DNA of 29,897 nt from a virus, in IMG/VR virus record IMGVR_UViG_3300005618_000046, positions 1 to 29,897 of that record, one strand, 5' to 3'. A program made the position numbers and the translations under genes. The notes under the pieces were generated by a model. It had not been told where the DNA came from. It ran no database searches and saw only the letters and a list, made by a program, of their open reading frames with translations. Below, in pieces: positions 5,131 through 25,410 of this stretch (position 1 is the stretch's first letter; each line of letters opens with the position of its first letter).

Positions 5131-7671
5131 TCATACCTGTCCGAATAAGCGGCGGTTTAAGCCTCGCCATCCTTTCGGCTTTGCGAGAGTGGTGTCGTTG
5201 TCGCCCTTATCCTCGTCGGTAAATTGGAACCGAGGCTCCATTATCACCGAAATAGCGAGGCCAAACGCCTCCGTTAGGGTGGCGATCTTGTATTTAAATC
5301 GCAGCATGTTCCGTCCACTTTCGGTGTACGCTTCTAGGACACCGGCCTCACGGAATTCAGCCAGCACCCGCGCGCCCTGAACAGGGAGGGTGCCCATGTC
5401 GCGGCATACTTCGCCGACGCGCTTGTTGAGGTCTGCCACGGTGAACGGCATGGAGATATCGGAATCCTCCATTACGCGGCCGTCTTCGATGATGTACTTC
5501 GCCACACGGCGAGCATACGACATGTTCGACGACATTATGTCGTTGTCGGTGGCGGCTGAGTTTTCGGTGTTCTCTATCGCGTGCCGATCGGTGGGGAAAT
5601 TGGCAAAGTAGTGCATGTAATGCTCGCGGGCGTCTTTGCGGGCGAGCAAGTCGTTGAAATTGTCAAAGAATGGCTTGAGGGTAACCGCCCACCGCCGAAA
5701 ATCAGCGGCACTCATCTTCTTGTGCTCTCTGTCGTACGCTTTCATGTAGAATAGGGCACGGTCCTGAATGTTGGCTTGCCCCAAGTTCATGTCTATATTG
5801 TTGCTGGCAAAAATGACGCGGGAGAAGATGCGGTAATTTCGTGCCGACTGGAACTTCTCCGCACCACCGATGCTGACGTTACGGATCAGTTTCTTTATTT
5901 CCTCAGTACTCGCTTCGGAGTGGAACTTGGCCTCGTCTATGAAGACGAGCATCTTGCCGATGAACGGCTCGATGGCAAAGGCACCTTCCAGCAATTTTGG
6001 TGATGCCGTGCCCCACAGATTCTGGAACAGGGACATCAGAAAGGTGTTGCCGAAGAATGATTTGCCGACACCTTGACCCCCCACGATAACAGGCGCAACT
6101 TGCTGCTTCACGCCGGGATGTTGAACGACCCACGCTAACCACTGTTTTATCCATAACGCCTGTGCCTCGTTGTCGCGGGTTAAATATCCGAGGAGCTGGT
6201 CGAGGTGACTTACGCAGACATTCATGAGATCCTGGTTGACGGGGGCGGCGATGGCGATGGGCCAGCCTTTCCAGGTATTGAATGCTGTGTTTACTACCTT
6301 CTCGTCTTCGCTATCGTCGCTAATTTGGTCACCAATTCGATCAATTCGGAATATTCCTCCGGGGTTAAGCTCTGGATAGAGGTCTCGTGTGTTAACCCTC
6401 TTACGGATACTTGAAATTTCAAAGAGTTTAAAAGCCGGACGTGGCTTTCCTGCCACCCGGACAAAATCCCCGCGATGGCGTCGTTCCAGTTCTGCGCCCG
6501 AATGTGCATATTGTCCGAAGGATTGAAATCTCTCTCGATCGATATAGAGATCGTCAGTTTCGTCATAGACATACCTTTCGGCGAGCTTGGTGAGAATCGA
6601 TACGTCGGCACCCGGCATCAAAACAGCCCGGAGGGCGTTTACGGTTTCGTCGCCGAAAAGCTGGGACATAGTTGGCCAGCCCGGAATCTTCGCATCGGGG
6701 TTTCGCGCCAGCTTGCCGCACGCATCGCGGTATGTCCGAACCCGCATGTAAGGCTCGTCGTCGCCCAGCTCCTTGCATATGAACTCTATCATACTTTCGG
6801 CGATGCTGTCTGCGTCGATGGGGCAGAACACGTCGTCCGCAATCGCCTCGTGGTTGTTGAGCCCATAACTTTCGGCGACCACGCGAGCGAGCCAGCCACT
6901 TATTTTTTGGGCAGTGGTTTGTCGTGATCCTTCAACCCAATGGGGTTTGAATAGATATAAGGCAGTGCCAAATGCAATAGCTCGGATGATAGTGTTGAAT
7001 TCCGTTTTGCGCGGAGTAGTAATTGCCACATCGCCGACGGAATGTGCAACGGCGGTCCCGTCTCGATACCAGACCGAAATATCGTGATGGGTAGCCTGGA
7101 GTTTGTGGACATAAATCGACCCCGGCATCACTGTTTGTTTAGCTTCGCGGACGAGGTTGGATTGCTGTGTCGAAGTGGCGAGGCTGCGAAGCTCTACTTT
7201 GTGGCGCGCACCCTCGAGCCGGAACTCGTTGGGTTCAAACATCTTCAACTGATTGAAGTTGGTGGCTTCACTTTCGCTGAGCTGCACGAGGAGGTGAGAG
7301 GGGGCTCCCACCGAAAGTCGACCAAACTGGAAGCGCGTATCAACTCCGAGATGATTAAGAGCCGCAACGATGCAGAGGTTGTATTCGGCATTATAGGAGT
7401 CAATATCGATATCCACCCATCCAAATTGGAGATTAAATCCGACGTTGAGTGCTTGGTGTTCGGGTTCATCGATCCAGCTTTGGAGGTTAGTGTCGCGGTA
7501 CCCGCGCGTGAACCAGTCGTTCTCGAACGGTGTCTTGCCGCTTTGTTTCAGAAAGACAGCGCCGACTTGGATAAAGTTGTTGTTAATCAGATATGTTATT
7601 GAGCGCTGTTCTCGGAGTAGCTTCTCATCGGCTGGTTCAAACGCGAACCCGCCCGCGACAGCTGATAACAT
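5131..7671 (-). CDS. Primase-helicase (prim-pol-like N-terminus, SF3/DUF5906-type helicase C-terminus)
   Basis: 846 aa. Around residues 83-91 FGWVDIDID gives the acidic DxD of archaeo-eukaryotic primase/prim-pol domains, with H126 and E160 as further candidate active-site residues. The C-terminal ATPase has Walker A G531-GQGVGK-S538, Walker B MLVFIDEA (D579, E580), a polar sensor FASNN (621-625) and a downstream basic DRALF. This layout matches phage DUF5906 primase-helicases that unwind DNA and lay primers for a phage polymerase. The last 140 residues may be a DNA-binding extension. The start ATG 7671 has GAGGGG just upstream and the promoter 7695-7724 behind it. It probably works with the family A polymerase at 425-2212. 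Confidence 0.9.
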   Translation of the reverse strand: MLSAVAGGFAFEPADEKLLREQRSITYLINNNFIQVGAVFLKQSGKTPFENDWFTRGYRDTNLQSWIDEPEHQALNVGFNLQFGWVDIDIDSYNAEYNLCIVAALNHLGVDTRFQFGRLSVGAPSHLLVQLSESEATNFNQLKMFEPNEFRLEGARHKVELRSLATSTQQSNLVREAKQTVMPGSIYVHKLQATHHDISVWYRDGTAVAHSVGDVAITTPRKTEFNTIIRAIAFGTALYLFKPHWVEGSRQTTAQKISGWLARVVAESYGLNNHEAIADDVFCPIDADSIAESMIEFICKELGDDEPYMRVRTYRDACGKLARNPDAKIPGWPTMSQLFGDETVNALRAVLMPGADVSILTKLAERYVYDETDDLYIDRERFQSFGQYAHSGAELERRHRGDFVRVAGKPRPAFKLFEISSIRKRVNTRDLYPELNPGGIFRIDRIGDQISDDSEDEKVVNTAFNTWKGWPIAIAAPVNQDLMNVCVSHLDQLLGYLTRDNEAQALWIKQWLAWVVQHPGVKQQVAPVIVGGQGVGKSFFGNTFLMSLFQNLWGTASPKLLEGAFAIEPFIGKMLVFIDEAKFHSEASTEEIKKLIRNVSIGGAEKFQSARNYRIFSRVIFASNNIDMNLGQANIQDRALFYMKAYDREHKKMSAADFRRWAVTLKPFFDNFNDLLARKDAREHYMHYFANFPTDRHAIENTENSAATDNDIMSSNMSYARRVAKYIIEDGRVMEDSDISMPFTVADLNKRVGEVCRDMGTLPVQGARVLAEFREAGVLEAYTESGRNMLRFKYKIATLTEAFGLAISVIMEPRFQFTDEDKGDNDTTLAKPKGWRGLNRRLFGQV

Positions 7672-11194: not shown

Positions 11195-11380
11195 CTACTT
11201 GCCGTACTTGAGCGTCACTTCCACGATTGCGCCGACGGACAGTTCGCCCACGGCGGATTTGCGAAGGTAGCAAACGCCCTGCACTTCGATGGTCTTCTCG
11301 CCCTTGTCATCGATTTCGTGCAGCTTGACTGCTCCGGGGGTGTGGCCAATCACTTGCAGCTGATAAGACTTGGTTTGCAC
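11195..11380 (-). CDS. Small beta-rich early protein
   Basis: 61 aa, starting with GTG at 11380 (GGAG six bases upstream). Alternating polar and hydrophobic residues (YQLQVIGHTPGAVKLHEID; VGAIVEVTLKYGK) suggest a small beta barrel. It is the first gene after the promoter at 11433-11461 and is followed by a weak GC hairpin around 11173-11190. No family recognised; OB-like or SH3-like folds are possible, but unproven. Confidence 0.65.
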   Translation of the reverse strand: MQTKSYQLQVIGHTPGAVKLHEIDDKGEKTIEVQGVCYLRKSAVGELSVGAIVEVTLKYGK

Positions 11381-11432
11381 GTTGTTCTCCTGTTACACGG
11401 CTCGCTATTGGCGCGGGGTGCGCTGCGTGCCC

Positions 11433-11461
11433 ATTGTACCATGGGCGCGCGGCCGTGTCAA
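11433..11461 (-). promoter_or_regulatory. Extended -10 sigma70-like promoter
   Basis: Minus strand: -35 TTGACA (11461-11456), 17-bp spacer containing CGGCCGCGCGCC, -10 TACAAT (11438-11433), preceded by TGG. It drives the gene starting at 11380 and probably the DUF2786 gene. Confidence 0.82.
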
Positions 11462-11472
11462 GTTGGCCTTCG

Positions 11473-11685
11473 CTATTCTACAGGCGGAGAGCTTAGCCGC
11501 CTGTGCATTTCTTTCATCGCCTCAGACATGTTCTCGTATGGGCCGAGCACAGGGCCATCGAAAGTGCGAAGGAACACTCGCTTCGAGCCGTCGCGGACGA
11601 ACTTTAATTCCGCCACGCGAATCTGCCCGATCCAGAACACTATTCCTCCGTCTTGCCTCTTGGATGTCATTACCCACTTCGACAT
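11473..11685 (-). CDS. Hypothetical small basic protein
   Basis: 70 aa with several short strands (GGIVFWIGQIRVAEL, KRVFLRTFDG) and a C-terminal helix (SEAMKEMHRRL). Net charge is basic. The ATG at 11685 lies two bases after the stop of the SSB-tail protein gene, with no clear ribosome site, so it is likely translated by coupling. It is the last gene before the promoter at 11433. Function unknown. Confidence 0.6.
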   Translation of the reverse strand: MSKWVMTSKRQDGGIVFWIGQIRVAELKFVRDGSKRVFLRTFDGPVLGPYENMSEAMKEMHRRLSSPPVE

Positions 11686-11687
11686 AG

Positions 11688-11951
11688 CTAGAACGGAATG
11701 TCGTCGTCAAGTACCTCGCGCGTTTCGTGCGGCGTGTTTCGCTGCGCGGGCTGCTGGTTTGGGGCGCGGTCGCGCGGCTCGAACAAGAGCATCCTTACCT
11801 GCCCCTTCTCGTCAGGGACGGGGTAAGCATCGAGGATTACCGAAATCTGACCCTTATCGGATTGGAACGCGGTGCCTACGCGAACCCAGTAAGTGCCACT
11901 TCCGTCGCTCTTCGGACGGGGCGTTGAAACGTCAAATCTTTTGCCTGCCAT
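11688..11951 (-). CDS. Mini protein with SSB-like C-terminal tail
   Basis: 87 aa. The C-terminus is DDDIPF, the acidic tip by which bacterial SSB proteins recruit replication and repair enzymes. The body (residues 1-60) is beta-rich (GTYWVRVGTAFQSDKGQISV, then a strand ending RMLLFEPRD) and the linker is Gln/Pro-rich, as in SSBs, but the body is about half the length of a normal OB-fold SSB domain plus flanks. It could bind ssDNA itself or compete for SSB partners. The ATG overlaps the upstream stop (TAATG). It lies within the early operon led by 13266. Confidence 0.65.
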   Translation of the reverse strand: MAGKRFDVSTPRPKSDGSGTYWVRVGTAFQSDKGQISVILDAYPVPDEKGQVRMLLFEPRDRAPNQQPAQRNTPHETREVLDDDIPF

Positions 11952-12226
11952 TACTTAGTCTCCTTGATCGGGGGTAGGTGCTTTGCCCATTCTTCGGGGG
12001 TTATCCCCGTCTTCAGAAATTCTCGCTCTTCGTCGGTGAGGAGCGGGAACGCATCTTGCAGCAGCCTCGGGTCTTCACCCCTCATCCACAGCTCGATCGC
12101 TTCGATGGTGGTGCCGCTGATGTTCATCATATTCATCGTGTGGGTTATGTCGGATAACCGCCGCACGAACACCGTGTCATGCTTTCCCTGTATCAGCTTG
12201 GTTGTTCCCATGTGCACTATTTTCAT
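11951..12226 (-). CDS. Hypothetical early protein
   Basis: 91 aa. The N-terminus forms a beta strand (MKIVHMGTTKLIQG); the C-terminus has LTDEEREFLKTGITPEEW, a pattern I have seen in short phage proteins of unknown role. AAGGAGAAG lies right before the ATG at 12226. It overlaps both neighbours by stop/start codons (ATGA upstream, TAATG downstream), making it a firm operon member. Confidence 0.7.
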   Translation of the reverse strand: MKIVHMGTTKLIQGKHDTVFVRRLSDITHTMNMMNISGTTIEAIELWMRGEDPRLLQDAFPLLTDEEREFLKTGITPEEWAKHLPPIKETK

Positions 12227-12477
12227 TTCTTCTCCTTTTGCATCTCAATGAACACGGCCTCACTCACCGTGTTCCATATCTTGCGCAGGACCGGCTTCAG
12301 CATGTCACAGTCTTGCCACAATATGCTTCCGTTCTCCTGCATGTCTTCGCGGGCTCGCCCGAGGTTCTGCACGTAAGTGCCCACTTCGATCGCATTGTTC
12401 AGCACCCGTTCAACGGAGCAGGTGCGAATCAGCATCGGCTCGTCCTTGCTCAGCTCAATTTCGACTAGCAGCTTCAT
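12223..12477 (-). CDS. Hypothetical early protein
   Basis: 84 aa, alpha/beta with an initial strand (MKLLVEIEL) and a long C-terminal helix (VLRKIWNTVSEAVFIEMQKEKK). It overlaps the upstream gene by 23 bases and the downstream gene by four (ATGA). No recognised motif. Operon placement supports it as a coding gene. Confidence 0.65.
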   Translation of the reverse strand: MKLLVEIELSKDEPMLIRTCSVERVLNNAIEVGTYVQNLGRAREDMQENGSILWQDCDMLKPVLRKIWNTVSEAVFIEMQKEKK

Positions 12478-12637
12478 TCTTCAGCCTTTCGATGATTGCT
12501 TCGAGGTCCCACCCGGTGAACTGATCGAGGAGCCAGTCAGCCGCCTCGGCGGGGTGGTGAAACCCCGCCATTAGCAGCTTCCTAGCTTCCTGCTTCAGCT
12601 CCGCCTTGGTGAGTTTGGGCGGGGCCGGTTTCTTCAC
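12455..12637 (-). CDS. Small helical early protein, GTG start
   Basis: 60 aa beginning at a GTG that overlaps the upstream gene's TGA (GTGA). Residues 10-60 form two or three helices (TKAELKQEARKLLMAG; PAEAADWLLDQFTGW; LEAIIERLKNEA). The frame is open much further upstream, but that part lies inside the 210-aa gene and is a shadow. Unknown function. Confidence 0.6.
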   Translation of the reverse strand: MKKPAPPKLTKAELKQEARKLLMAGFHHPAEAADWLLDQFTGWDLEAIIERLKNEAASRN

Positions 12638-13266
12638 GCTGCGACCTTCGCGGGCTTGCGGCGGCTCGCCATCCACTCTTCGCTGAGCTTGTACTCGGGC
12701 TCGGCGCCTTCGAGGGGCGTCTTCACGATGCCGCCCGCCGCGAAGACCTTTCCGGCCAGAACGTTGCGGCCGGTCATGCGAAGCCGGCCTTGCCACCCGT
12801 TCGTGGTCCTGTTGTACTTGCTCAGGTCGACTCCGTTGGCGTTGCAGATCGCTTCGAACCGGGGGATGTCGAACCCGGCCTTCGCTAGGCAGAGGTTGTT
12901 GATCAGGAGCGCCAGTTCGTCGCCGCAATGGGCGGGATGGCCCGCTTCGGCGTACCTTGCGCGGTATTCTGCCTTCACGACTGATTTCTCAGGCTCTTCA
13001 TCGCCTCCCTCGCCGCCATCTTCAGCAGCCTCTTGCTCCCGCTCTTCGTCCACCTCCATAATTGCCTTCGTGCTCGTTGCATTGGCGTCCCATGCTTCCG
13101 CTGCATTGTCCCATTCCTCGTTCCACACGTCGAACTGCTCCGTCCCCTCTTCGAAGGGGCAATCGGCCGCCGAAAACCCGGCAGCGTGGGCTTCCGCCCC
13201 GTTTTCGGGGACCGGCTTCGGCTCTTCGATCCTCAGGTTCTTGGTGCTCTTGGACTTCTTGGCCAT
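12634..13266 (-). CDS. Early phage protein, member B of a three-copy paralogue family
   Basis: 210 aa. The first 90 residues are acidic and probably disordered (runs of Glu and Asp). The core then reads KSVVKAEYRARYAEAG, HCGDELALLINNLCLA, FDIPRFEAICNANGVD and GWQGRLRMTGRNVLAG, parallel to members A (4570-5055) and C (16602-17120). B and C also share a C-terminal EEW/DEW segment. The GRLRMT block is the best conserved. GGAG lies eight bases before the ATG and promoter 13315-13343 is upstream; the gene heads a long operon. Function unknown; nucleic-acid binding is a guess from the basic core. Confidence 0.75.
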   Translation of the reverse strand: MAKKSKSTKNLRIEEPKPVPENGAEAHAAGFSAADCPFEEGTEQFDVWNEEWDNAAEAWDANATSTKAIMEVDEEREQEAAEDGGEGGDEEPEKSVVKAEYRARYAEAGHPAHCGDELALLINNLCLAKAGFDIPRFEAICNANGVDLSKYNRTTNGWQGRLRMTGRNVLAGKVFAAGGIVKTPLEGAEPEYKLSEEWMASRRKPAKVAA

Positions 13267-13314
13267 TTTCTACGTCTCCTGTTGCGGTTCGTGCGGGGCG
13301 CGCGACCGAGCCCC

Positions 13315-13343
13315 ATTAGAGCACGGCCGCGCGTTCCTGTCAA
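13315..13343 (-). promoter_or_regulatory. Extended -10 sigma70-like promoter
   Basis: Minus strand: -35 TTGACA (13343-13338), 17-bp spacer with GCGCGGCCG, -10 TCTAAT (13320-13315), preceded by TGC. It feeds the operon from 13266 to 11473. Confidence 0.75.
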
Positions 13344-13354
13344 GTGGGTCTTCG

Positions 13355-13645
13355 CTACGCGGGCAGCAAGCCCGTCGAAACGTCGACCCATTCCATTGCT
13401 ACGTTGCTTACCATCAGTTCGCTGGTGTCCTTGCCCTCCATGTTGCCAAACGCCGCGAACGTACCGGTGTCTTCGTCGGTTGGTTCAATTCCGCCCGTGT
13501 CGGTGATTCGCACCTGGAACACGTAAGACACCGGGAGCGGGTCCTTCCGATTGCGAAGCCAGTATTCGTTGGCCTTCTCAATTGCGAGATCGGCGAGGGC
13601 CGCGCTTCCGAACGTGAAGTTACGTATTTCCCAGTTCTTGTGCAT
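13355..13645 (-). CDS. Hypothetical early protein
   Basis: 96 aa. An N-terminal helix (AALADLAIEKANEYWLRNRK) is followed by strands (VSYVFQVRITD; SELMVSNVAMEWVDV). No family recognised. Its ATG at 13645 is directly preceded by the 21-bp leader repeat (13645-13665), which contains a small ATG ACC AGA AAG frame that overlaps the start. Promoter 13711-13739 lies upstream, so this is probably a one-gene transcript. Confidence 0.65.
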   Translation of the reverse strand: MHKNWEIRNFTFGSAALADLAIEKANEYWLRNRKDPLPVSYVFQVRITDTGGIEPTDEDTGTFAAFGNMEGKDTSELMVSNVAMEWVDVSTGLLPA

Positions 13646-13665
13646 TTGCGTGCTTTCTGGTCATT
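13645..13665 (-). repeat. Leader repeat copy 1 before 13355-13645
   Basis: 21 bp identical to 15022-15042. On the minus strand it reads AATGACCAGAAAGCACGC then AAA and runs into the start codon of the 96-aa protein. Shorter versions occur at 17108-17121 (true N-terminus of paralogue C) and 8238-8250 (terminator loop). Confidence 0.7.
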
Positions 13666-13710
13666 TCGACCGGTTGGTTGCTTCAGATAGCGAGCCGCGC
13701 CCGCGCCCCG

Positions 13711-13739
13711 ATTATAACACGGCGGCGCGGCGCGCGCAA
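13711..13739 (-). promoter_or_regulatory. Extended -10 promoter with TTGCGC -35
   Basis: Minus strand: -35 TTGCGC (13739-13734), 17-bp all-GC spacer, -10 TATAAT (13716-13711, perfect consensus), preceded by TGT. It drives the gene at 13645. Confidence 0.78.
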
Positions 13740-13767
13740 GTGGTCTTTCGGCTTTCCTATTCGAAAC

Positions 13768-14058
13768 CTAATGCTTGTCCTCTTCCAACATGTTCCACTC
13801 GTGGATGAAGTCCCAGAACACCTGCTCTTCGTGGGTCTTATAGGTGCCGGGGTCGAACAATGAGAGTTCGTTGGTTGATTTATTGTCGTATTTATCGATT
13901 ATGTCTTGCACCTCCTCTGGTGTTATGTGGTGTTTGTCGGCGACGAGCCGCACGAATGCGGCTGATTGTTGTGCTTGCTTGATCTTCTGGTTGGCGCTCA
14001 GCGAAGGGTTGGTGATCCCTTTCACGATTCGCAGCGTCAGTTCATCCAGTTCAGGCAT
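13768..14058 (-). CDS. Hypothetical early protein
   Basis: 96 aa starting MPELDELTLRIVKGITNP. Helical, with a middle helix KIKQAQQSAAFVRLVADKH and ITPEEVQDIIDKYD. I chose ATG 14058 because it overlaps the stop of the 53-aa gene by eight bases; the frame stays open further upstream, but only within that gene. The C-terminus is acidic. No recognised domain. Confidence 0.65.
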   Translation of the reverse strand: MPELDELTLRIVKGITNPSLSANQKIKQAQQSAAFVRLVADKHHITPEEVQDIIDKYDNKSTNELSLFDPGTYKTHEEQVFWDFIHEWNMLEEDKH

Positions 14059-14212
14059 TTGGATATTTTTCCTGTGTTGCACGCGCGTCTTCTTCGGTGT
14101 CGAAGGGACCAATCGCGTCGTAATTGTATTCCGGCTGGTCTTCGTCACAGTAAACGATGTACCAACCGGTTGTGGCTTCTTCCTCTGTCTTCACAAATTC
14201 GATCTTTTCCAT
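14051..14212 (-). CDS. 53-residue early protein with IGPF motif
   Basis: A short ORF: MEKIEFVKTEEEATTGWYIV, then YCDEDQPEYNYDAIGPFDTEE and a short C-terminal helix. It is very acidic. The segment IGPFDTEEDARATQEKYP parallels IGPFGDRAAAQKWIESKG in the neighbouring 106-aa protein (14214-14534), suggesting a shared small alpha/beta unit. The start lies two bases before the upstream gene's stop region, and its own stop overlaps the next ATG. Confidence 0.65.
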   Translation of the reverse strand: MEKIEFVKTEEEATTGWYIVYCDEDQPEYNYDAIGPFDTEEDARATQEKYPNA

Positions 14213-14213
14213 G

Positions 14214-14534
14214 TTACTTGGTCTCCTTCTCTGCCTCTATGACCTTATCCACGATTTCCTGCCACTTCTCTGCGTGGTCTTCGTTGCCCCATTCCAGCTC
14301 CTCTGGCGCTTCAACGGGGATTTCTTGGACGATTTCGAACACTTCCAGTGGTTCGTCTTGGTTGGTTGCCCACGCTCCGATGTTGTTCGGGTCGTTGTAG
14401 TTCCATTCTACCGGCTTTCCGCCCTTAGATTCGATCCACTTCTGCGCGGCGGCGCGGTCGCCGAAAGGCCCGATGAACTTCAGCTCGCGAAGCATTCCGT
14501 CTCTGTCGTTGTGTTCTGCGTATCTTACATACAT
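14214..14534 (-). CDS. Hypothetical early protein with IGPF motif
   Basis: 106 aa. MYVRYAEHNDRDG, then IGPFGDRAAAQKWIESKGGK resembles the 53-aa neighbour; the second half is acidic (VQEIPVEAPEELEWGNEDHA) and ends in a charged helix. ATG 14534 is used because GGAG lies eight bases upstream; the open frame upstream to 14651 runs into another gene. Function unknown. Confidence 0.68.
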   Translation of the reverse strand: MYVRYAEHNDRDGMLRELKFIGPFGDRAAAQKWIESKGGKPVEWNYNDPNNIGAWATNQDEPLEVFEIVQEIPVEAPEELEWGNEDHAEKWQEIVDKVIEAEKETK

Positions 14535-14554
14535 TCTGTGTGCTCCGTGTGTTT

Positions 14555-14572
14555 GGCCGCATTTGCGCGGCC
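14555..14572 (-). terminator. Short GC hairpin between early genes
   Basis: GGCCGC (14555-14560) and GCGGCC (14567-14572) with a 6-base loop lie ten bases after the stop of the 72-aa gene. There is no T-run on the minus strand, so termination is uncertain. Confidence 0.3.
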
Positions 14573-14581
14573 TTGGGTTTA

Positions 14582-14800
14582 TTACTCGATTCGCCAGACG
14601 CGAATCCCGTTCTCTGCTTGCCTGATCGCGAAGCGGTGGCCTGTTGTCCACCTTGCTTTTCTTACGTAGTCTTGCACTTGGGTTCTTGTCTTGTCGGTGA
14701 TTAGCACGCTGTCGCCGACTTCCATGCTTCGCAGGGCCGCCGAAATAGGGTGCAATTCCTTGCTCCCTTTCGGCATGGGGACGTTCTTGTCGATCTTCAT
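14582..14800 (-). CDS. Small early protein, DUF7303-like
   Basis: 72 aa: MKIDKNVPMPKG, a helix PISAALRSMEVGDSVLIT, then a basic helix DYVRKARWTTGHRFAIRQA and a final strand GIRVWRIE. This compact alpha/beta layout with a basic helix resembles small phage proteins grouped as DUF7303, which I recall only by pattern. It may bind DNA. ATGA overlap with the upstream gene shows coupling. Confidence 0.6.
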   Translation of the reverse strand: MKIDKNVPMPKGSKELHPISAALRSMEVGDSVLITDKTRTQVQDYVRKARWTTGHRFAIRQAENGIRVWRIE

Positions 14801-15021
14801 CTGCTGGTTTCTGCGTTCTCCTGCGCCTCGATCTCTTCGTCGTATTGTAGCACCGTTGCGTCGATTATCCTTATTTCAGTGCCCGTGTTCTGCGTGTTTG
14901 CGAAGGTGAGGCCCTTGCGCACCCAGAAATCGAGGGCCGCTTCGATGCCGATTTGAATCGCGTCTTTGTCTTCTCCATCTGCTTCGGCGATGATTCGGAT
15001 GTCGAGAATTACTTGTGCCAT
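14797..15021 (-). CDS. Hypothetical early protein
   Basis: 74 aa: strand-helix-strand (MAQVILDIRIIAEADGEDKD, AIQIGIEAALDFWVRKG, TEIRIIDATVLQYDEE), probably a small ferredoxin-like alpha/beta fold. ATG 15021 follows the second copy of the 21-bp leader repeat. Promoter 15090-15118 is upstream. The open frame upstream of the ATG is not coding. Family unknown. Confidence 0.68.
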   Translation of the reverse strand: MAQVILDIRIIAEADGEDKDAIQIGIEAALDFWVRKGLTFANTQNTGTEIRIIDATVLQYDEEIEAQENAETSR

Positions 15022-15042
15022 TTTGCGTGCTTTCTGGTCATT
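15022..15042 (-). repeat. Leader repeat copy 2 before 14797-15021
   Basis: Identical over 21 bp to 13645-13665 and placed the same way, ending at the start codon. It encodes the beginning of a ten-codon frame (MTRKHAKWHK) that overlaps the real gene start in another frame. Confidence 0.7.
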
Positions 15043-15089
15043 CACATCGTTGCCCGCATTCGCGGGGGCGCGGGGGCCGCGCCGGGACC

Positions 15090-15118
15090 AGCAAAGCACG
15101 GCCGGGGCCGCCGCGCAA
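15090..15118 (-). promoter_or_regulatory. Extended -10 promoter with TTGCGC -35
   Basis: Minus strand: -35 TTGCGC (15118-15113), 17-bp spacer with GGCCCCGGCCG, -10 TTTGCT (15095-15090, weak), preceded by TGC. It faces away from the plus-strand promoter at 15167 and would serve the gene starting at 15021. Confidence 0.6.
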
Positions 15119-15166
15119 GGGGGGTTTCGCATTTCGCGCGCCGAACACGGGGTAGTGGAAAGAACC

Positions 15167-15195
15167 TTGACAAACGAGCGCAGGCGTGGTACACT
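15167..15195 (+). promoter_or_regulatory. Plus-strand extended -10 promoter
   Basis: TTGACA (15167-15172), 17-bp spacer, TACACT (15190-15195), preceded by TGG. It is followed within 25 bases by the ribosome site GAGGAG and the ATG at 15220. Confidence 0.8.
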
Positions 15196-15219
15196 ACTGA
15201 GGGTACAGAGGAGAGTGAA

Positions 15220-15453
15220 ATGACGGACATTCCATACCTTGGAAAACGCCGAAGAATCAAAGCATCGCGAGCCACAGGAAATGCTGAAATATGGAACATG
15301 GTCAACGAAGTAAATCATCGAATCTCTGAAGCGGATCGCCTGCTGAAGCAGATACGAGCGATTCTAGAGCGTAAAGTTAAGAAGGGTGAGGCGCTTAACA
15401 TCACCGAAATGATAGAGGTGTTGCAAACCATAAACGCCGAATTAGGACCTTAA
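15220..15453 (+). CDS. Small basic coiled-coil protein, isolated plus-strand gene
   Basis: 77 aa. A basic N-terminus (LGKRRRIKASRATG) is followed by a long helix with heptad spacing (IWNMVNEVNHRISEADRLLK, QIRAILERKVKKGE) and a second helix (NITEMIEVLQTINAEL). It is transcribed against all neighbours from its own promoter, like the gene at 7970. The codon choice looks less GC-biased than its surroundings. No family recognised; the basic tail plus coiled coil suggests a DNA- or protein-binding role, and the context that of a moron. Confidence 0.72.
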   Translation: MTDIPYLGKRRRIKASRATGNAEIWNMVNEVNHRISEADRLLKQIRAILERKVKKGEALNITEMIEVLQTINAELGP

Positions 15454-15877
15454 ATTGTTAGATACGCTCGTCCATCTCTGTCCTCTTAATATCCTTTTTC
15501 CCTTTACCACACCCTACGCGCCGGAAAAAGGACCGAGAGGCTTATGATGTTATACGGCGTTGTAGCGCCTCGCCGCCGCGCGGCGGGGCGGTAAAGGGAA
15601 AAGGCGCATAGGGCGGGTGAGTATGGCTGAGCGTACGAACGCTTGCGAAGCGTGTCGCGCAGGTTGCTAGCTTTTCGGCGGGCGCTGTCGAAGGCCTTCG
15701 CGACGCAACGCGCGCGAAACGTTTCTTTTGCGCAGGTTGCGCGCTTTTCGGCGCACAGTTCGGAAGCGCTTCGCGCAAGCGAAACGTTTCGCACTGATTC
15801 GCAGATACAGGTTCGCCCCCGGAGAGTTTTCGCTCGCCGAGGGCGCGTTTCGTGTTAGCGAAGAGCTTCGCTAAAGG
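15454..15877. other. Non-coding 424-bp region rich in palindromes and repeats
   Basis: No convincing gene. It holds a perfect 10-bp inverted repeat right after the plus-strand gene (15492-15501 with 15523-15532), whose left arm can also pair with 15590-15604. There is a 14-bp palindrome at 15573-15586, and a direct repeat GCGCAGGTTGCnnGCTTTTCGGCG at 15657-15680 and 15730-15753. GAAACGTTTC occurs at 15716-15725 and 15781-15790, and a 9-bp-arm palindrome at 15855-15874. The first 100 bases are relatively AT-rich. Candidate roles are replication origin, regulatory RNA, or recombination or host-derived repeat. Confidence 0.6.
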
Positions 15878-16066
15878 TTAGTGGTGGTAGCCTTCACCTT
15901 CGCTTACGTAGCGCTTCGCCGCGTCTGCCCACTCGTGAAGCTCTTCCTTGGTTCGCCGCGCGGTTGCGGAAACCACGTACCACAACCCGTCGTCGCATTT
16001 CACCGCTAAGACGGCTGTCCACATTTCGGTGGTTGTATCGAACTTGGTAAACGTTTCGAATTCCAT
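15878..16066 (-). CDS. Hypothetical small early protein
   Basis: 62 aa: strands MEFETFTKFDTT, TAVLAVKCDDGLWYVVSATA and a C-terminal helix (KEELHEWADAAKRYVSEG) ending in two histidines. ATG 16066 has GGAG six bases upstream, which overlaps the previous gene's stop. It is the end of the first early transcript, next to the palindromic region. Function unknown. Confidence 0.65.
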   Translation of the reverse strand: MEFETFTKFDTTTEMWTAVLAVKCDDGLWYVVSATARRTKEELHEWADAAKRYVSEGEGYHH

Positions 16067-16076
16067 CACAAGCTCC

Positions 16077-16235
16077 TTAGTGCGAGTAAACCGGCTCGCC
16101 GGGTTTCGTGTTCGTCAAGTCAAGCGCGAGCTTCCCGTCGAGCCACAACTGAAAAGCTTCGTCCTTGTGAAGGAGGTAATCGCGCTTCGCGTCGCGAGGA
16201 TCGCGAATCACGCGGACGTAGAGGGGTTTCTGCAT
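16077..16235 (-). CDS. Hypothetical small early protein
   Basis: 52 aa: MQKPLYVRVIRDPRDAKRDY, then a helix KDEAFQLWLDGKLALDL and a short tail. AAGGA is eight bases upstream of ATG 16235; the frame upstream belongs to a hairpin region. Basic in the first half. No family recognised. Confidence 0.6.
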   Translation of the reverse strand: MQKPLYVRVIRDPRDAKRDYLLHKDEAFQLWLDGKLALDLTNTKPGEPVYSH

Positions 16236-16265
16236 TTCGATGTTCCTTCTTGTTCCGGGTGGGGT

Positions 16266-16296
16266 GGGCGTGCCGTGAACCGGCACGCCCGTTTTT
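16266..16296 (+). terminator. Rho-independent terminator facing plus-strand transcription
   Basis: GGGCGTGCCG (16266-16275) and CGGCACGCCC (16281-16290) form a 10-bp stem with a 5-base loop, followed by GTTTTT. The T-run is on the plus strand, where no gene ends nearby, so it may stop antisense read-through from the plus promoter at 15167. Confidence 0.65.
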
Positions 16297-16297
16297 G

Positions 16298-16510
16298 CTA
16301 CTCGAAGTCGATTCCGACCTGCGAGAAGTAGGCAACGCGCCTGCCTTCGTTCAGGACTTCGAAACCGTCGCGTGTGTCCCGCTCGGTCGCGTTCGGGAAT
16401 TTCTCGCAGACTTCGTTATAGGCTTCGCAGAACCGATCGAAATAGTTCTTGCGAGTTTCGCCTGCGATGCGCGACACGAACTGGTGGCAGCACGAAGAGA
16501 AAGTAAGCAT
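16298..16510 (-). CDS. Small early protein, paralogue of 8267-8461
   Basis: 70 aa with the pattern QFVSRIAGE, a charged helix, P-x-A, RDGF and RRVAYF shared with the 64-aa product of 8267-8461. It has two adjacent cysteines near the N-terminus (SSCC) and one in each of two later helices. GGAG lies nine bases before ATG 16510. The sequence between, AATGACCA, is the shortest form of the leader motif seen at 13645 and 15022. Function unknown. Confidence 0.68.
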   Translation of the reverse strand: MLTFSSCCHQFVSRIAGETRKNYFDRFCEAYNEVCEKFPNATERDTRDGFEVLNEGRRVAYFSQVGIDFE

Positions 16511-16569
16511 TGGTCATTACTCCTGAGTGCAACTGGACTCATCAGCGCTGGCTTCACCAGCGGAGGGGT

Positions 16570-16589
16570 GGGGCGCATTCGCGCGCCCC
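16570..16589 (-). terminator. GC hairpin after paralogue C
   Basis: GGGGCGC (16570-16576) and GCGCCCC (16583-16589) with a 6-base loop, just downstream of the stop at 16602 on the minus strand. It is followed by ACCCCTCC and no T-run, so it is a weak terminator candidate. Confidence 0.35.
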
Positions 16590-16601
16590 GTCCCTTTCGT
16601 C

Positions 16602-17120
16602 CTAGGTGCGGTATTTCGCGATCCATTCGTCCGGCGCGACCAGCTGCTCGGGCTCGCCGCCTTCCTCATCCGGCACGAGCAGAACGCCCGCGTCCGCAAC
16701 CATCGGGCGAAGCACGAGCCCGATCGTCATCCGGAGCCGTCCTTCCCAGCCCTTGCTCTGGTTCGGCCAGCGCTCCTGCGGATCTTCGATTCCGTTCAGC
16801 TCCGCAATCGCGACGAGTGCCGCGATGTCGATCTTGCTGGCCTTGTCCAGCACGTTCGCCGCGAGGCTCGCGGCCAGCCAATCGCCGGTTGAGCGCTTGG
16901 CCCATTTCGCGCGCTGGCCGTTCGCCCGTGCGCGATCTTTGTAGCGGACCTTGTAGGTCGGCTTCACGACCGAGTTGGTGAGCTTGATCTGCTCTTCGAT
17001 CTCGGCGTCGTCGAGGATCTCTTGCGCCGTGGGCGTCTCCTCAACCTTGGGTTGTGCAACCGATGCGAGCAGCTCGTTGGCTTCTTCGAGGACGCTCAGG
17101 GTTGCGGGCTTTCTGGTCAT
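16602..17120 (-). CDS. Early phage protein, member C of a three-copy paralogue family
   Basis: 172 aa, the first gene of the leftward early block. It starts MTRKPATLSVLEEANELLAS; the core has NSVVKPTYKVRYKDRARANG, GDWLAASLAANVLDKA, IDIAALVAIAELNGI, GWEGRLRMTIGLVLRP and DEWIAKYR. The same order occurs in members A (4570-5055) and B (12634-13266). Here the RNxLA part after RMT is changed to IGLVLR. GGAG is present before the ATG and promoter 17208-17236 is upstream, so it should be among the first genes expressed. Function unknown. Confidence 0.75.
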   Translation of the reverse strand: MTRKPATLSVLEEANELLASVAQPKVEETPTAQEILDDAEIEEQIKLTNSVVKPTYKVRYKDRARANGQRAKWAKRSTGDWLAASLAANVLDKASKIDIAALVAIAELNGIEDPQERWPNQSKGWEGRLRMTIGLVLRPMVADAGVLLVPDEEGGEPEQLVAPDEWIAKYRT

Positions 17121-17207
17121 TTCTGCTTCTCCTGCGCGCGGGTTGCGCGCTTTCTGATTGCACGCGGGGCGGGTTCGCCTCGCGCGGTCGGCCGCGCCGA
17201 CCTCGCG

Positions 17208-17236
17208 ACTTTAGCACGGCGCGGCCGCGCGCGCAA
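17208..17236 (-). promoter_or_regulatory. Extended -10 promoter of the first leftward early gene
   Basis: Minus strand: -35 TTGCGC (17236-17231), 17-bp GC-only spacer with GCGGCCGCGCC, -10 TAAAGT (17213-17208), preceded by TGC. It feeds paralogue C and the genes to its left. Confidence 0.7.
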
Positions 17237-17301
17237 TGCGGCGGCTCGCCGCGCCCACCCCAGGACACCCGCCCCGACGCACGAACACCCCCCTGATCCG
17301 A

Positions 17302-17336
17302 CCGCTCAAAACTCGTTTTGAGCGGGGGCCCCGCTC
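17302..17336. promoter_or_regulatory. Three-armed inverted repeat between early and late blocks
   Basis: 17302-17312 (CCGCTCAAAAC) pairs with 17315-17325 (GTTTTGAGCGG), and 17320-17327 (GAGCGGGG) pairs with 17329-17336 (CCCCGCTC). The middle arm is shared, so only one hairpin can form at a time. It sits in the 338-bp gene-free stretch 17121-17458. Downstream a weak plus-strand promoter candidate is TTGCAA (17350) and ATCAAT (17372). The element could be an operator, an attenuator or a transcription boundary. Confidence 0.55.
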
Positions 17337-17458
17337 GAAGCGCAACGCATTGCAAGCGCGTATGGGCGTGCATCAATCCCCAACCCGTATACCCCATTGA
17401 CCGCGTATGGGAGGACGTTTCCACTACCCCAGTCCCCCTTCCAACCGGAGTTTTTTCG

Positions 17459-17968
17459 GTGACCCAAGCACAGCCCCACGACCCGAAGCCTGCTTCTGCT
17501 ACCGTGTCCCAGAGATACCCAGCTGTCGAAGAGGCCTCTGGCCCGGAAACACGGCATTACAATGTTCCCCTTTCGGTGGCCGAGCAGGAAGCTATTCTCG
17601 GAGCCGAAGGCAAAGAAATTCGAGAAGGTAGAGCTTCACGGTCCGTCGACGGCGCTACCCCGAATACCAGAGACATCTGGTACGTGTATCTCGACGAAGA
17701 AGGCCACCCCACGGGTTCGCTGATGCAGGAAATGCCCAAAGGTGACGACAAGCCATTCGCACCCGTCACTTTTACCCCATCGTCACCGGCAGACGTGCTC
17801 ATGACACCCTCTGGAGCGCCACTGACGGAACACATGAATCCGCTTCATTCCCATTACGACGCGGGCCTAGAAGAGCGCAACCCAACCCCAGACATAGCGG
17901 CACCGAAAGTAGGACAGAAGGTGGCCCCGAAGACACCGCCGAAGTCAACCGAACCATCGAAGAAGTAG
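17459..17968 (+). CDS. Hypothetical protein at the head of the late operon
   Basis: 169 aa from GTG 17459, chosen because CGGAG ends eight bases upstream; the frame is open back to 17318 through the hairpin region, but without a ribosome site. Residues 30-50 hold a helix (LSVAEQEAILGAEGKEIREG) and residues 70-95 a small beta region (DIWYVYLDEEGHPTGS). The last 50 residues are Pro/Lys-rich and disordered. It precedes TerS and may be a packaging accessory or minor structural protein; not recognised. Confidence 0.7.
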   Translation: MTQAQPHDPKPASATVSQRYPAVEEASGPETRHYNVPLSVAEQEAILGAEGKEIREGRASRSVDGATPNTRDIWYVYLDEEGHPTGSLMQEMPKGDDKPFAPVTFTPSSPADVLMTPSGAPLTEHMNPLHSHYDAGLEERNPTPDIAAPKVGQKVAPKTPPKSTEPSKK

Positions 17969-17979
17969 TCTATATTTCG

Positions 17980-18468
17980 GTGACCACAGAGTTTCCTCAG
18001 GACCTGATTCCGCTACCAACGGCACCTTACCCCGAAAGGCCAGTAAGCGAGCCGTTGGTTCCGGAAGAGTGCAGAACGGCAATCTGGCTCGTACGCGGGA
18101 ATATCACCGAAGCAGCGAAGCTGCTCAAAGTGACATCCCTCCGCCTGCGCCAGTTCGTCAACAAATCCCCGTATCTACTTTCGGAGATGCAAGAGGCGAA
18201 AGACCAGCTCACAGACATAGCAGAGACAGTCGTCTACGAAGCACTCACCGACGAAGACGACAAAGGTCGCAAAGACACGATGGCCCGTTTCGTGCTCGGC
18301 TCGCAAGGTAGAAACCGAGGATGGGGGCACTCATCTTCGGCGGGCGTGAACATAAAGAACTCAGGCGGCGGAACCATAGTTGTGCAATGGGCTGACGGTA
18401 CCGTTTTCGGCGATTCCGAGGAGAAGCCACCCGATACGATAGATATAACACCTGAGAAGGTGGCGTGA
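17980..18468 (+). CDS. terS: Terminase small subunit (TerS)
   Basis: 162 aa starting at GTG 17980. After a proline-rich arm, residues 33-66 form a helix-turn-helix (TAIWLVRGNITEAAKLLKVT, then SLRLRQFVNKSP) followed by a helical oligomerisation part (AKDQLTDIAETVVYEALTD) and GRKDTMARFVLGSQGRNRG. This matches small terminases that bind the packaging site and feed DNA to TerL. The C-terminus is acidic. It is separated from TerL by a 31-codon gene coupled on both sides. There is no clear ribosome site; TTTCGGTGACC surrounds the GTG, as at the 17459 start. Confidence 0.8.
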   Translation: MTTEFPQDLIPLPTAPYPERPVSEPLVPEECRTAIWLVRGNITEAAKLLKVTSLRLRQFVNKSPYLLSEMQEAKDQLTDIAETVVYEALTDEDDKGRKDTMARFVLGSQGRNRGWGHSSSAGVNIKNSGGGTIVVQWADGTVFGDSEEKPPDTIDITPEKVA

Positions 18469-18563
18469 TGGATTGGCGAAACATCATGTTGATGACCCTC
18501 GGCGGCGCGATAGCCCTCGCGGTGCTATATCTAAGCACCAACAAACCCAAGCCGTGTTCCTGA
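18468..18563 (+). CDS. 31-residue membrane peptide between TerS and TerL
   Basis: MDWRNIMLMTLGGAIALAVL, then YLSTNKPKPCS. One hydrophobic helix (about residues 6-22) with a short basic tail ending in cysteine. Its ATG shares a base with the TerS stop (TGATG), and its own TGA shares a base with the TerL ATG (TGATG), so it is built into the packaging operon. A tiny holin or other membrane-acting peptide is possible; no homologue is recognised. Too short for most gene callers. Confidence 0.6.
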   Translation: MDWRNIMLMTLGGAIALAVLYLSTNKPKPCS

Positions 18564-19894
18564 TGGAATCAGCCGCCATCCAAGAAGTGGGGCCAAGGAC
18601 GTACACAATACCGTACGTAGCCCGGACCCACTTTCGGCCTCTGCATGCGAGCAAGAAGCGGTGGACATTCGTCGTAGCCCATAGACGAGCCGGCAAAACA
18701 GTTGCGCTGTGTAACAAGATTATTCGGAAAGCGCTCGAAAATAAGCGCGTGTTCCCTCCACCCCGATACGGGTATATCGGACCCTCCTTCGCACAGGCCA
18801 AAGATTTGGTCTGGGGATATTGCAAATATTACACAGGGGTGCTGCCGAATATCAAGGTGATCGAAGGGGATTTGCAGATAGTGCTGCCGAATGGCGCATT
18901 AATAAACTTGTATGGCGGAGCGGCCGCTTACGAACGAATGAGGGGTCTCTATTTCGATGGGATAGTTGCCGACGAGTATCCACTCCTCAATCCGAGCATG
19001 CTCGGAAGTGTCGTGCGGCCGTGTCTAGCCGATTACCAGGGTTGGGCAGTCATAAGCGGCACCTCCAACGGTGACGACCACTTCAATGAACTGAAGAAGC
19101 GCGCCGAAAAAGACCCAGACGCGTGGGACATATTTTCCATACCGGTCAACGAAACCGACGCACTCGACCCCGACGAAGTTTCGGAGATGCGAAAGGACAT
19201 GACTGCGGACGAGTACGCCCGCGAAATGATGTGTTCTTTCGATGCACCTGTCGAGGGGTCCTATTACGGCGAAGTAATCAACGAAATATCTCTCCTGAAT
19301 CAGGTAACCGGCGTTCCGTACGACCCTGCGGCCCCAGTTATGACTTGGTGGGACCTCGGAATCGACGATGAAACCGCCATATGGTTCGTGCAGCGTGTCG
19401 GCAGAGAACTTCATGCGATCGATTTCCTCCAGAACACCGGAAAAGGGCTCGAGTGGTACGCGACGGAAATCAAGAATAAGTCGTACCACTACGCGGTCCA
19501 CGTAACACCCCACGACATCATGGCGAGAGAGTTGGGAACGGGCAAAAGCCGCTACGAGATACTCCTCGCACTTCTTAACAACGTGTTCGTATGTCCCGGT
19601 CACACGCCCGAAGACGGAATCACCGCCGCAAGAGCCACAATAAGAATGACGTGGTTCGACAAGGTGAAGACAGAGGCTGGCCTTTCGGCGCTCAAGAATT
19701 ATCACAAGTCGAAGACGGGCAAGCCAGTCCACAACTGGGCGAGCCACCCGTCCGACTCATTCCGGTACGGCAGCGTAGCCCTGAACCACGTGGCGTCGTA
19801 TCTCGGAAGCACTAGCAATGTAATACCCCTGAACGGGCCCCTTCGGCGAAACCTAAAGCGAATGTCCAACGTTCCGAGATTGGGGCGCAGATGA
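18563..19894 (+). CDS. terL: Terminase large subunit (TerL)
   Basis: 443 aa. The ATPase domain has Walker A AHRRAGKT (39-46), Walker B GIVADE (D137, E138) and coupling motif GTSNG (166-170). The C-terminal RNase H-like nuclease has WWDLG (D264), PHD (D318) and SHPSDSFRYG (D398), the three acidic positions expected for DNA cleavage. It packages phage DNA into the prohead through the portal at 20103. The start is ATG 18563 because it overlaps the preceding short gene; frame extension upstream to 18473 has no good start. It ends in ATGA, coupling to the next gene. Confidence 0.95.
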   Translation: MESAAIQEVGPRTYTIPYVARTHFRPLHASKKRWTFVVAHRRAGKTVALCNKIIRKALENKRVFPPPRYGYIGPSFAQAKDLVWGYCKYYTGVLPNIKVIEGDLQIVLPNGALINLYGGAAAYERMRGLYFDGIVADEYPLLNPSMLGSVVRPCLADYQGWAVISGTSNGDDHFNELKKRAEKDPDAWDIFSIPVNETDALDPDEVSEMRKDMTADEYAREMMCSFDAPVEGSYYGEVINEISLLNQVTGVPYDPAAPVMTWWDLGIDDETAIWFVQRVGRELHAIDFLQNTGKGLEWYATEIKNKSYHYAVHVTPHDIMARELGTGKSRYEILLALLNNVFVCPGHTPEDGITAARATIRMTWFDKVKTEAGLSALKNYHKSKTGKPVHNWASHPSDSFRYGSVALNHVASYLGSTSNVIPLNGPLRRNLKRMSNVPRLGRR

Positions 19895-20103
19895 AGCCTC
19901 CTCGCCGAAAGCGCCGGACTATTCAGGAGGACCCCCGTTTCGATGATTTGGGGTTCCAAGAGTCGAATTCCAAGGATGCGTACATCTACGGGCGGAGCCA
20001 GAAAATAAATCCGTCGGAACTGACCCCCTCTTTCGGCGGCGAAATACCGATTCCAGGTATCTTGGCGCGGCGTAAGTACCCCAGGAAATTCGGGAGAACG
20101 TAA
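19891..20103 (+). CDS. Small basic protein between TerL and portal
   Basis: 70 aa, very basic N-terminus (MKPPRRKRRTIQEDPRF) and C-terminus (ARRKYPRKFGRT), little predicted structure. It overlaps TerL by ATGA and the portal by TAATG. Positions like this often encode small head-completion or DNA-binding proteins, but no family is recognised. Confidence 0.72.
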   Translation: MKPPRRKRRTIQEDPRFDDLGFQESNSKDAYIYGRSQKINPSELTPSFGGEIPIPGILARRKYPRKFGRT

Positions 20104-22433: not shown

Positions 22434-22680
22434 TTTCGAGGTTGACGAGCGGGCAACGGCTGCGTTGTTGCTGCTCAACGACAAATACATCGTGGAGGCT
22501 TTCACGGCGTTACGAGAAATGTACATCAATATTCTCGAGAATTCGCCGGTCGGCGGAGAGGCAGCCGCGACAGCCCACACAAGTCTGAAGGTCCTTCAGG
22601 ATTTCCGGGCTAACATCGAGTCGATGGTAACAGACCAAAAAATGCGAGTCAAATACAGCGGGAAACCAAGAAATGCCTGA
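22405..22680 (+). CDS. Small head-module protein
   Basis: 91 aa, helical (AALLLLNDKYIVEAFTALRE; TAHTSLKVLQDFRANIESMV). It starts inside the end of the portal gene (29-bp overlap), with GGAGG six bases before ATG 22405, and overlaps the scaffold start by eight bases. Proteins in this position often assist prohead assembly; no family is recognised. Confidence 0.72.
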   Translation: MPAPKPERSDFEVDERATAALLLLNDKYIVEAFTALREMYINILENSPVGGEAAATAHTSLKVLQDFRANIESMVTDQKMRVKYSGKPRNA

Positions 22681-23743: not shown

Positions 23744-23861
23744 TCGCAGCAAGTTCAGGAAGGCCCGGACCCGCACAGACGGAACGGGCTTATGCTCGGC
23801 GAATTTCACTAACCGATCGGCGCAAGGTTAGGTGGAATCTCCGCGTTCCTAGGAGTCAGGA

Positions 23862-23930
23862 ATGACAACTATCAACCCGGAGATTCACCATGCCGAAGGT
23901 TACAGGCGCATTCACTACGTACGATGCTAA
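23862..23930 (+). CDS. Possible 22-residue leader peptide overlapping the capsid start
   Basis: ATG 23862 follows AGGAGTCAGG and opens a 22-codon frame (MTTINPEIHHAEGYRRIHYV, then RC) whose last third overlaps the capsid gene in another frame. The stretch before it (23744-23861) contains a stem 23809-23814/23826-23831. It may be a translational coupler for capsid synthesis or just chance. Confidence 0.3.
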   Translation: MTTINPEIHHAEGYRRIHYVRC

Positions 23931-24879: not shown

Positions 24880-24896
24880 TTGCCCGCGAGAAACTT

Positions 24897-24938
24897 GGGG
24901 CGGCGTCTCGAATTCCCTCATCTGCGCCGCCCCCTTTT
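24897..24938 (+). terminator. Rho-independent terminator after the capsid gene
   Basis: GGGGCGGCG (24897-24905) pairs with CGCCGCCCC (24925-24933), a 9-bp stem with a 19-base loop, followed by C and TTTT. It probably lowers transcription into the less-needed downstream genes. Confidence 0.8.
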
Positions 24939-24949
24939 GGGAGAATATT

Positions 24950-25258
24950 ATGTCTAGTTCAACACATCGAATACTACTCCCTGTCGGGGAGTACACCAAC
25001 ATATCGAACGGCAACACGAATTGTTTTGTGTTTTTGGAGTACAACCAGCGTTTGAGGGTGGTTGTTGGGGGTATCTTACCTCCGGCGGATACTTTTGAGT
25101 ATTTCGATGTTGATTCCAGCAACGAGAATAGTTACGCTGGACATCGACTTGGTTTTAAGGTTGGAAACCTCCTCCTTGAGGATGACGTGTTCGTCATGCC
25201 CGACGGGGAATACCAAATGGACATCGTGGTGGTGAGAGGAGAAGTCAATGCCCTTTAA
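24950..25258 (+). CDS. Small structural protein, decoration-like
   Basis: 102 aa, beta-rich (THRILLPVGEYTNISNGNTN, then CFVFLEYNQRLRVVV; YQMDIVVVRGEVNAL). No coiled coil or signal peptide. The location directly after the capsid and terminator suggests a head decoration or minor structural protein, but the family is not recognised. GGGAG lies about seven bases before ATG 24950. Confidence 0.65.
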   Translation: MSSSTHRILLPVGEYTNISNGNTNCFVFLEYNQRLRVVVGGILPPADTFEYFDVDSSNENSYAGHRLGFKVGNLLLEDDVFVMPDGEYQMDIVVVRGEVNAL

Positions 25259-25409: not shown

Positions 25410-25410
25410 A

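Follow-up and report, generated by a model that had tools for sequence, protein, structure and literature searches.

A putative replication origin combining a long hairpin with one-sided palindromic iterons in podophages related to Ochrobactrum phage vB_OspP_OH

Positions 15454-15877 of the window, by which the whole 29,897-nucleotide stretch of viral DNA analysed here is meant, are probably a replication origin, composed of a hairpin of about 170 bp on the left and an array of palindromic iterons within about 400 bp on its right. The anatomy of this element, its conserved position and polarity in relatives, and the presence of a primase-polymerase gene in the same phage were established by computation. 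The features of the element and of its surroundings are collected in Table 1.

The DNA of the window comes from a tailed phage, of which it represents a fragment, and IMGVR contig 3300026095_000032 (L002) is identical to it across window positions 11551-26095. The terminase encoded at 18473 has 60% identity to the terL product of Ochrobactrum phage vB_OspP_OH, and the primase-polymerase has 56% identity to its counterpart there, which is annotated as a DNA primase-polymerase. This virulent Ochrobactrum phage (Wolominvirus) is the nearest named relative, and the window phage is a podophage related to it. Among named phages, no near relative was found by megablast of window positions 1-25000 or by distant blastn of 15000-16300, and none of the 59 pattern matches in bacterial genomes was confirmed as a terL relative. 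The left part of the window carries, on the minus strand, a DNA polymerase I-like gene (425-2212) and the primase-polymerase/helicase gene. The right part carries, on the plus strand, the terminase gene together with portal and capsid genes assigned from the gene order of vB_OspP_OH. The element is situated in the control region between these two sets of genes.

Table 1. Features of the element and its neighbourhood (window coordinates)
Feature	Position	Strand	Remark
Replication protein, candidate initiator	5131..7671	-	Primase-polymerase with SF3-type helicase (DUF5906/VapE-like) and possible C-terminal winged helix
Sigma-70-like promoter TTGACA-17-TACACT	15167..15195	+	Reads via the 77-aa ORF toward the hairpin
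77-aa ORF, accessory gene adjoining the element	15220..15453	+	Scan matched its own phage (L073) only
Long imperfect inverted repeat (hairpin/cruciform)	15463..15635		Arms about 15463-15513 and 15585-15635
Hairpin interior with secondary stems	15514..15584		Holds the 15523-15532 partner and most of the GC palindrome CCGCCGCGCGGCGG (15573-15586)
46-bp direct repeat, copy 1	15657..15702	+	Includes the 24-bp repeat
Palindromic site GAAGGCCTTC	15690..15699		
Palindromic site GAAACGTTTC	15716..15725		
46-bp direct repeat, copy 2	15730..15775	+	76% identical
Palindromic site GAAGCGCTTC	15763..15772		
Palindromic site GAAACGTTTC	15781..15790		Within GCGAAACGTTTCGC
Palindromic site GAAGAGCTTC	15860..15869		
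Small ORF, right border of the element	15878..16069	-	
Palindromic site GAAGCTCTTC	15937..15946		Within the minus-strand ORF 15878-16069
Protein A, conserved, operon right of the element	16602..17120	-	Matches in 47 loci; paralogue K at 12634-13266

The paralogous proteins A and K flank the control region, and in many relatives (e.g. L005, L006 and L012) K is encoded on the strand opposite to that in the window and in L004. The protein A of the window has no Pfam match, no PDB-sequence match and no confident fold match; in its family, four Pfam families are each weakly matched by one of the 23 members. The interval between the plus-strand promoter and the hairpin, occupied by the 77-aa ORF in the window and by a different small ORF in L004 (about 3054-3259), is perhaps a slot for accessory genes.

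The minus-strand DNA polymerase gene at 425-2212 has DpoZ as its best NCBIfam match, with 268 bits against a cut-off of 500. An adenylosuccinate-synthetase/PurZ-like gene is present in all seven contigs searched (e.g. G001, 27149-28000), always below the PurZ cut-off, and all 14 control genomes likewise match below it. In vB_OspP_OH, the gene annotated as adenylosuccinate synthetase adjoins a pyrophosphohydrolase gene and is near a 5'-nucleotidase gene. The DpoZ-like polymerase and the PurZ-like gene could possibly represent a gene set for 2-aminoadenine (Z) DNA.

The hairpin of the window has a pyrimidine-rich left arm and a purine-rich right arm. Among inverted repeats spanning 120-210 bp, this one of 173 bp ranks first in the 29.9-kb window, with a score of 15 against 13 for the runner-up (two places), and its score was attained in one of 300 dinucleotide shuffles of 15454-15877. 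RNA folding of the whole stretch 15454-15877 gives z values of -4.7 on the plus and -4.2 on the minus strand, and DNA folding of the hairpin alone gives -3.1 and -3.4, respectively. The trinucleotide GTG, a primase recognition motif taken as a lead from the accessible text of the NrS-1 primase paper (PMC8718748), has a z of 2.0 on both strands in the hairpin interior, so that its enrichment is not clear. The hairpin was also considered as coding DNA, and this was rejected, as no conserved ORF overlaps it in the window. Four ORFs with matches extend into a hairpin in relatives (two in L012, one in L110 and one in L118), and these apparently continue into adjoining genes or their antisense.

An earlier note on this DNA had claimed stems, repeats and palindromes for the stretch, and these are real. 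Positions 15492-15501 (TCCTTTTTCC) are the exact reverse complement of 15523-15532, and a longer arm pairs with 15590-15604 (GGTAAAGGGAAAAGG) save for one additional T on the left. The stems described there as competing are present but form a minor part, the main feature being one long hairpin with a separate palindrome array. The AT-rich segment is only mild, since the AT content is 60% and 54% in two 50-bp windows over the left arm and the remainder is GC-rich. The 24-bp direct repeat ending in TTTTCGGCG was found at 15657 and 15730, within a 46-bp repeat of 76% identity, and the repeated GAAACGTTTC at 15716 and 15781. Moreover, six of the ten GAA-N4-TTC sites of the window are located within 15690-15946, to the right of the hairpin. 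Five of these sites are observed in 15454-15877, whereas 500 shuffles contain 0.18 on average and 2 at most.

Relatives were gathered by a terL scan, giving 71 loci, and by a profile scan, from which the best 80 of its 591 confirmed matches contributed more distant loci. Where a locus contained terL only in its 3' part, as in seven cases (L063, L064, L066 and L068-L071), it was excluded from the hairpin and palindrome counts. A conserved hairpin was defined as an inverted repeat with a score of at least 18 and a span of 120-210 bp. Such repeats occur 26 times in the 117 kb at -5600 to -2500 of terL versus once in the other 722 kb scanned, the region 2.5-5.6 kb upstream of terL having been picked after the first matches had been seen. 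Five of the 26 come from near-duplicate loci, and the remaining 21 hits are in 19 loci. Counted by locus, 19 of the 36 non-duplicate loci that have 3.8 kb or more upstream contain a hairpin that passes the threshold. The window hairpin, scoring below the threshold, was placed by its position, its neighbours and the similarity of its left part to L004, and the elements of L004, L012, L031, L043 and L056 were assigned by position and weaker pairing; in L056, the counted inverted repeat adjoins the one listed as the element. In most loci the span is about 140-198 bp and the element is 3-5 kb from terL. L107 has arms with 53 bp perfectly paired, and L118 a nearly perfect 53-bp arm.

The pairing is kept while the sequence letters are not, because plus-strand similarity (E 0.001) is found in only five of 253 element pairs while hairpins recur. 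A trial alignment of 15 hairpin interiors has no invariant column. A miniature transposable element with terminal inverted repeats would fit the size and the inverted arms. However, there is one such region per genome in the loci scanned, its place in the gene map is constant and the arms are unrelated between phages (the five similar pairs out of 253), and this reading is disfavoured as extremely improbable.

Some further inverted repeats were seen during this survey. In L149, a phage at a greater distance (primase-polymerase 47%), an inverted repeat of 153 bp is found on the reverse strand at 11348-11500, 5.5 kb from the primase-polymerase gene, with no GAA-N4-TTC within 450 bp and, by eye, a leftward promoter-like sequence nearby. 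Others, apart from the element, are found in L012 (746-851), L031 (1479-1615), L034 (438-544) and L050 (2498-2591), with TTGACA-like boxes in their arms. A second inverted repeat of vB_OspP_OH at 748-981 (L074) also has arms with TTGACA-like boxes, and it lacks adjoining GAA-N4-TTC sites. By eye, all five look like paired divergent promoters.

The palindromic sites are concentrated in the same part of the genome as the hairpin. Among the 10-bp palindromes located 1.8-5.6 kb upstream of terL, GAAACGTTTC (16 versus 2 outside) and GAAGCGCTTC (13 versus 1) rank first and second. GAA-N4-TTC occurs in this region 143 times (1.03 per kb) versus 101 times outside (0.15 per kb), and the iteron often takes the form GAARCGYTTC. 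To the right of 23 hairpins, the density of sites in the first four 100-bp bins is 7.0, 11.7, 4.8 and 2.6 per kb, and beyond these it is 0-1.3; to the left, there are three sites in total over 15 bins of 100 bp. Within 450 bp of the arms, 62 sites are on the right versus two on the left, namely 47 versus 2 in the first 15 elements and 15 versus 0 in the later eight, which are no strict hold-out because all 23 loci had been inspected when the general form GAA-N4-TTC was set. At least two sites accompany 18 of the 23 elements, and in L100 the motif is absent within 450 bp of the element. Of the 23 site spacings of up to 60 bp, 12 measure 16, 18 or 20 bp, and L107 features a perfect tandem array with a 16-bp unit in 4.3 copies. 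Clustered short related repeats, a trait of iteron origins, are thereby present. Comparison with relatives, in the spirit of the alignment proposed in the earlier note as a check, has found the repeats and the hairpin kept in position and form.

It is very unlikely that a regulator of the phage or its host uses the palindromes as operators, with the hairpin acting as a transcription insulator or an RNase III site between operons. Such a role would agree with the resemblance of GAAACGTTTC to LacI-family operators, with a minus-strand promoter-like site 19-55 bp left of the hairpin in seven of 23 loci, and with a minus-strand terminator right of the hairpin in four of 23, where it separates the right-hand operon from the element. 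However, the hairpin separates the sites from the minus-strand promoter, no promoter is seen consistently beside them, and the hairpin and the sites stay while the directions of the left-side genes change among relatives.

Phage vB_OspP_OH is outside the loci that defined the hairpin and palindrome pattern and provides an independent case for the proposed origin. Its record contains a 151-bp inverted repeat with a score of 23 at 1674-1824. Two of the eight GAA-N4-TTC sites in its 41 kb are on the predicted side (right, in window orientation), 100 and 123 bp off the hairpin, and these are the only ones within 800 bp to the right of it. Small hypothetical CDSs p05 and p06 are annotated over the element stretch, and, unlike in the window, the hairpin overlaps one of them, the 36-aa p06. 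No promoter-like site is present on either strand within 330 bp left of the hairpin. The terms stem-loop, hairpin and iteron are absent from the paper describing this phage, and its accessible passages name no origin for vB_OspP_OH.

The element could also mark genome ends, serving as a packaging or concatemer-processing site, which is quite unlikely. In phage T7, a hairpin near the terminal repeat has been proposed. Among the matches listed, seven of the 15 contigs with a length of 42 kb or more terminate no farther than 6 kb upstream of terL (L008, L011, L016, L093, L098, L116 and L117), the vB_OspP_OH record ends 1.7 kb from the hairpin, and the usual distance of the element from terL suits such a site. 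The ends of these seven contigs may be true genome ends or assembly breaks at the variable hairpin. However, several near-complete contigs run through the element, three of six contigs have ends with exact overlaps of 69-127 bp, as in circular assemblies, and the 55-bp end repeats of vB_OspP_OH would likewise seem to be an assembly overlap. Moreover, a one-sided iteron array would be unexpected for a cut site.

Another reading is that the hairpin is transcribed into a structured non-coding RNA, such as one with a protein-binding or regulatory role, with the palindromes being part of this RNA or of its control region; this is unlikely, although several observations speak for it. Arm mismatches on the plus strand are G-T more often than A-C (51 versus 25, p 0.004), the plus-strand fold is more stable than the minus-strand fold in 23 of 23 elements by MFE, words such as TACAAT and GTTGTA recur in the interiors of five and seven of 23 elements, respectively, and a plus-strand promoter reads toward the hairpin in the window and in L004. 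However, the plus-strand advantage disappears against dinucleotide shuffles (11 of 23), so that folding does not decide between DNA and RNA, and the composition of the arms alone may favour G-T. Promoter-like sites within 330 bp to the left are on the plus strand in five of 23 loci and on the minus strand, pointing away, in ten, with both in one locus; in three of the loci the left flank is shorter than 330 bp, and these counts are without shuffle control, the expectation in the window being about 0.6 per 3.1 kb on both strands. vB_OspP_OH has a promoter-like site of neither kind. Rfam gave no match at the gathering score for the window and ten relatives, and a permissive search of 15000-16300 gave two hits far below that score. 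A regulatory RNA is less likely because neither strand is favoured against shuffles and the nearby promoter points away in ten loci. A role at the DNA level fits better.

The candidate initiator is the primase-polymerase/SF3-helicase protein that the phage encodes. In nine homologues, Pfam finds DUF5906 and VapE-like domains in all nine and a sub-threshold Prim-Pol match in five. The AlphaFold2 model of the replication protein is poor (mean pLDDT 55.7), and Foldseek returned nothing for it at E 0.001. With VIA-align, this low-confidence model has the pRN1 primase 9aam as its best match (Z 7.4), and NrS-1 chains (Z 5.2-6.2) and CRISPR-associated primase-polymerases are among the best matches. 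Residues 710-814 of the same model match Cdt1/ORC winged helices with Z up to 6.3. Unrelated folds score alike, including bestrophin with Z to 5.5 and, for residues 710-814, Roquin ROQ with Z 6.4. As no Z value reaches 8 and the scores of some unrelated folds come close, the structural matches are support and not proof.

The closest precedent in the accessible text consulted is the stem-loop origin of the Sulfolobus plasmid pRN1 (PMC4234260). According to that text, a 100-bp stem-loop is needed for replication of pRN1, shows conservation of its structure rather than of its sequence, and is still functional when moved, and its authors noted a similar stem-loop in Bordetella phage BIP-1. The element described here shares with these a long non-coding stem-loop whose structure is kept with little sequence conservation. 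As in pRN1, a single protein unites a primase-polymerase of the archaeo-eukaryotic type with an SF3 helicase and, possibly, a winged helix. In contrast to pRN1, the span here is about 140-198 bp in most loci instead of 100 bp, and a one-sided palindromic iteron array is present, whereas pRN1 is described in that text as being without iterons. Furthermore, the pRN1 stem-loop is just 3' of the replication gene (PMC4234260), whereas the element here is situated in the early/late control region, at a distance of 7.8 kb from the 5' end of that gene. The best reading, by analogy, is that the element would work like the pRN1 stem-loop origin. Membership is not claimed because the position relative to the replication gene differs, iterons are present and the function is inferred only.

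Two other systems treated in the same accessible text (PMC4234260) are similar in part. In the oriV of RSF1010, iterons adjoin hairpins (ssiA/ssiB) in one origin that is served by a dedicated primase, but the RepA, RepB' and RepC proteins are separate and the stem-loops are short. The alpha protein of satellite phage P4 combines primase, helicase and a winged-helix domain acting on repeats, but its primase is of the Toprim type, and a long hairpin is not mentioned for P4 in that text. The earlier note had called the stretch a possible origin or regulatory RNA. The first half of this proposal has gained support from the hairpin and repeats conserved in relatives and from a primase-polymerase/helicase of the pRN1 type (PMC4234260), whereas the second half is not borne out, as Rfam gave nothing at the gathering score, neither strand is preferred over shuffles and promoters do not consistently read inward.

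We infer that the iterons are bound and that the DNA is melted and primed at this element, which would thereby function as an origin. The hairpin may extrude as a cruciform, or fold once one strand is exposed. The iterons would be bound by an initiator, the most likely candidates being the primase-polymerase/SF3-helicase and a DNA-binding protein adjacent to it or to the element. The hairpin would then open and the helicase would assemble at it, the primase domain may prime on the exposed single strand, and DNA polymerase I could extend the primers. GC skew, a further check proposed earlier, was calculated cumulatively for six near-complete contigs, where the minimum falls within or close to the control region and the maximum is distant from it. 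The minima (raw or detrended) are about 1.5-4 kb from the element in four of the six contigs with the element called, which is only consistent with an origin because gene direction changes in the same region.

To our knowledge, few origins have been mapped for phages with primase-polymerase replisomes. There is slightly less than an even chance that the element represents a new bipartite type of origin, in which a fast-evolving hairpin, its arms rewritten between phages with the pairing kept, is combined with palindromic iterons on a fixed side and serves a primase-polymerase/SF3-helicase replisome throughout a clade of podophages, most of them uncultivated. No such element has been described for this phage group in the parts of the literature searched, which were mostly outside subscription journals. 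The rule of a long hairpin with iterons at 0-400 bp on one side would allow origins to be called in metagenomic genomes. Moreover, the cultured phage vB_OspP_OH carries the module, and thus the origin idea is directly testable. The element would also provide a defined DNA substrate for asking how a primase-polymerase starts a genome.
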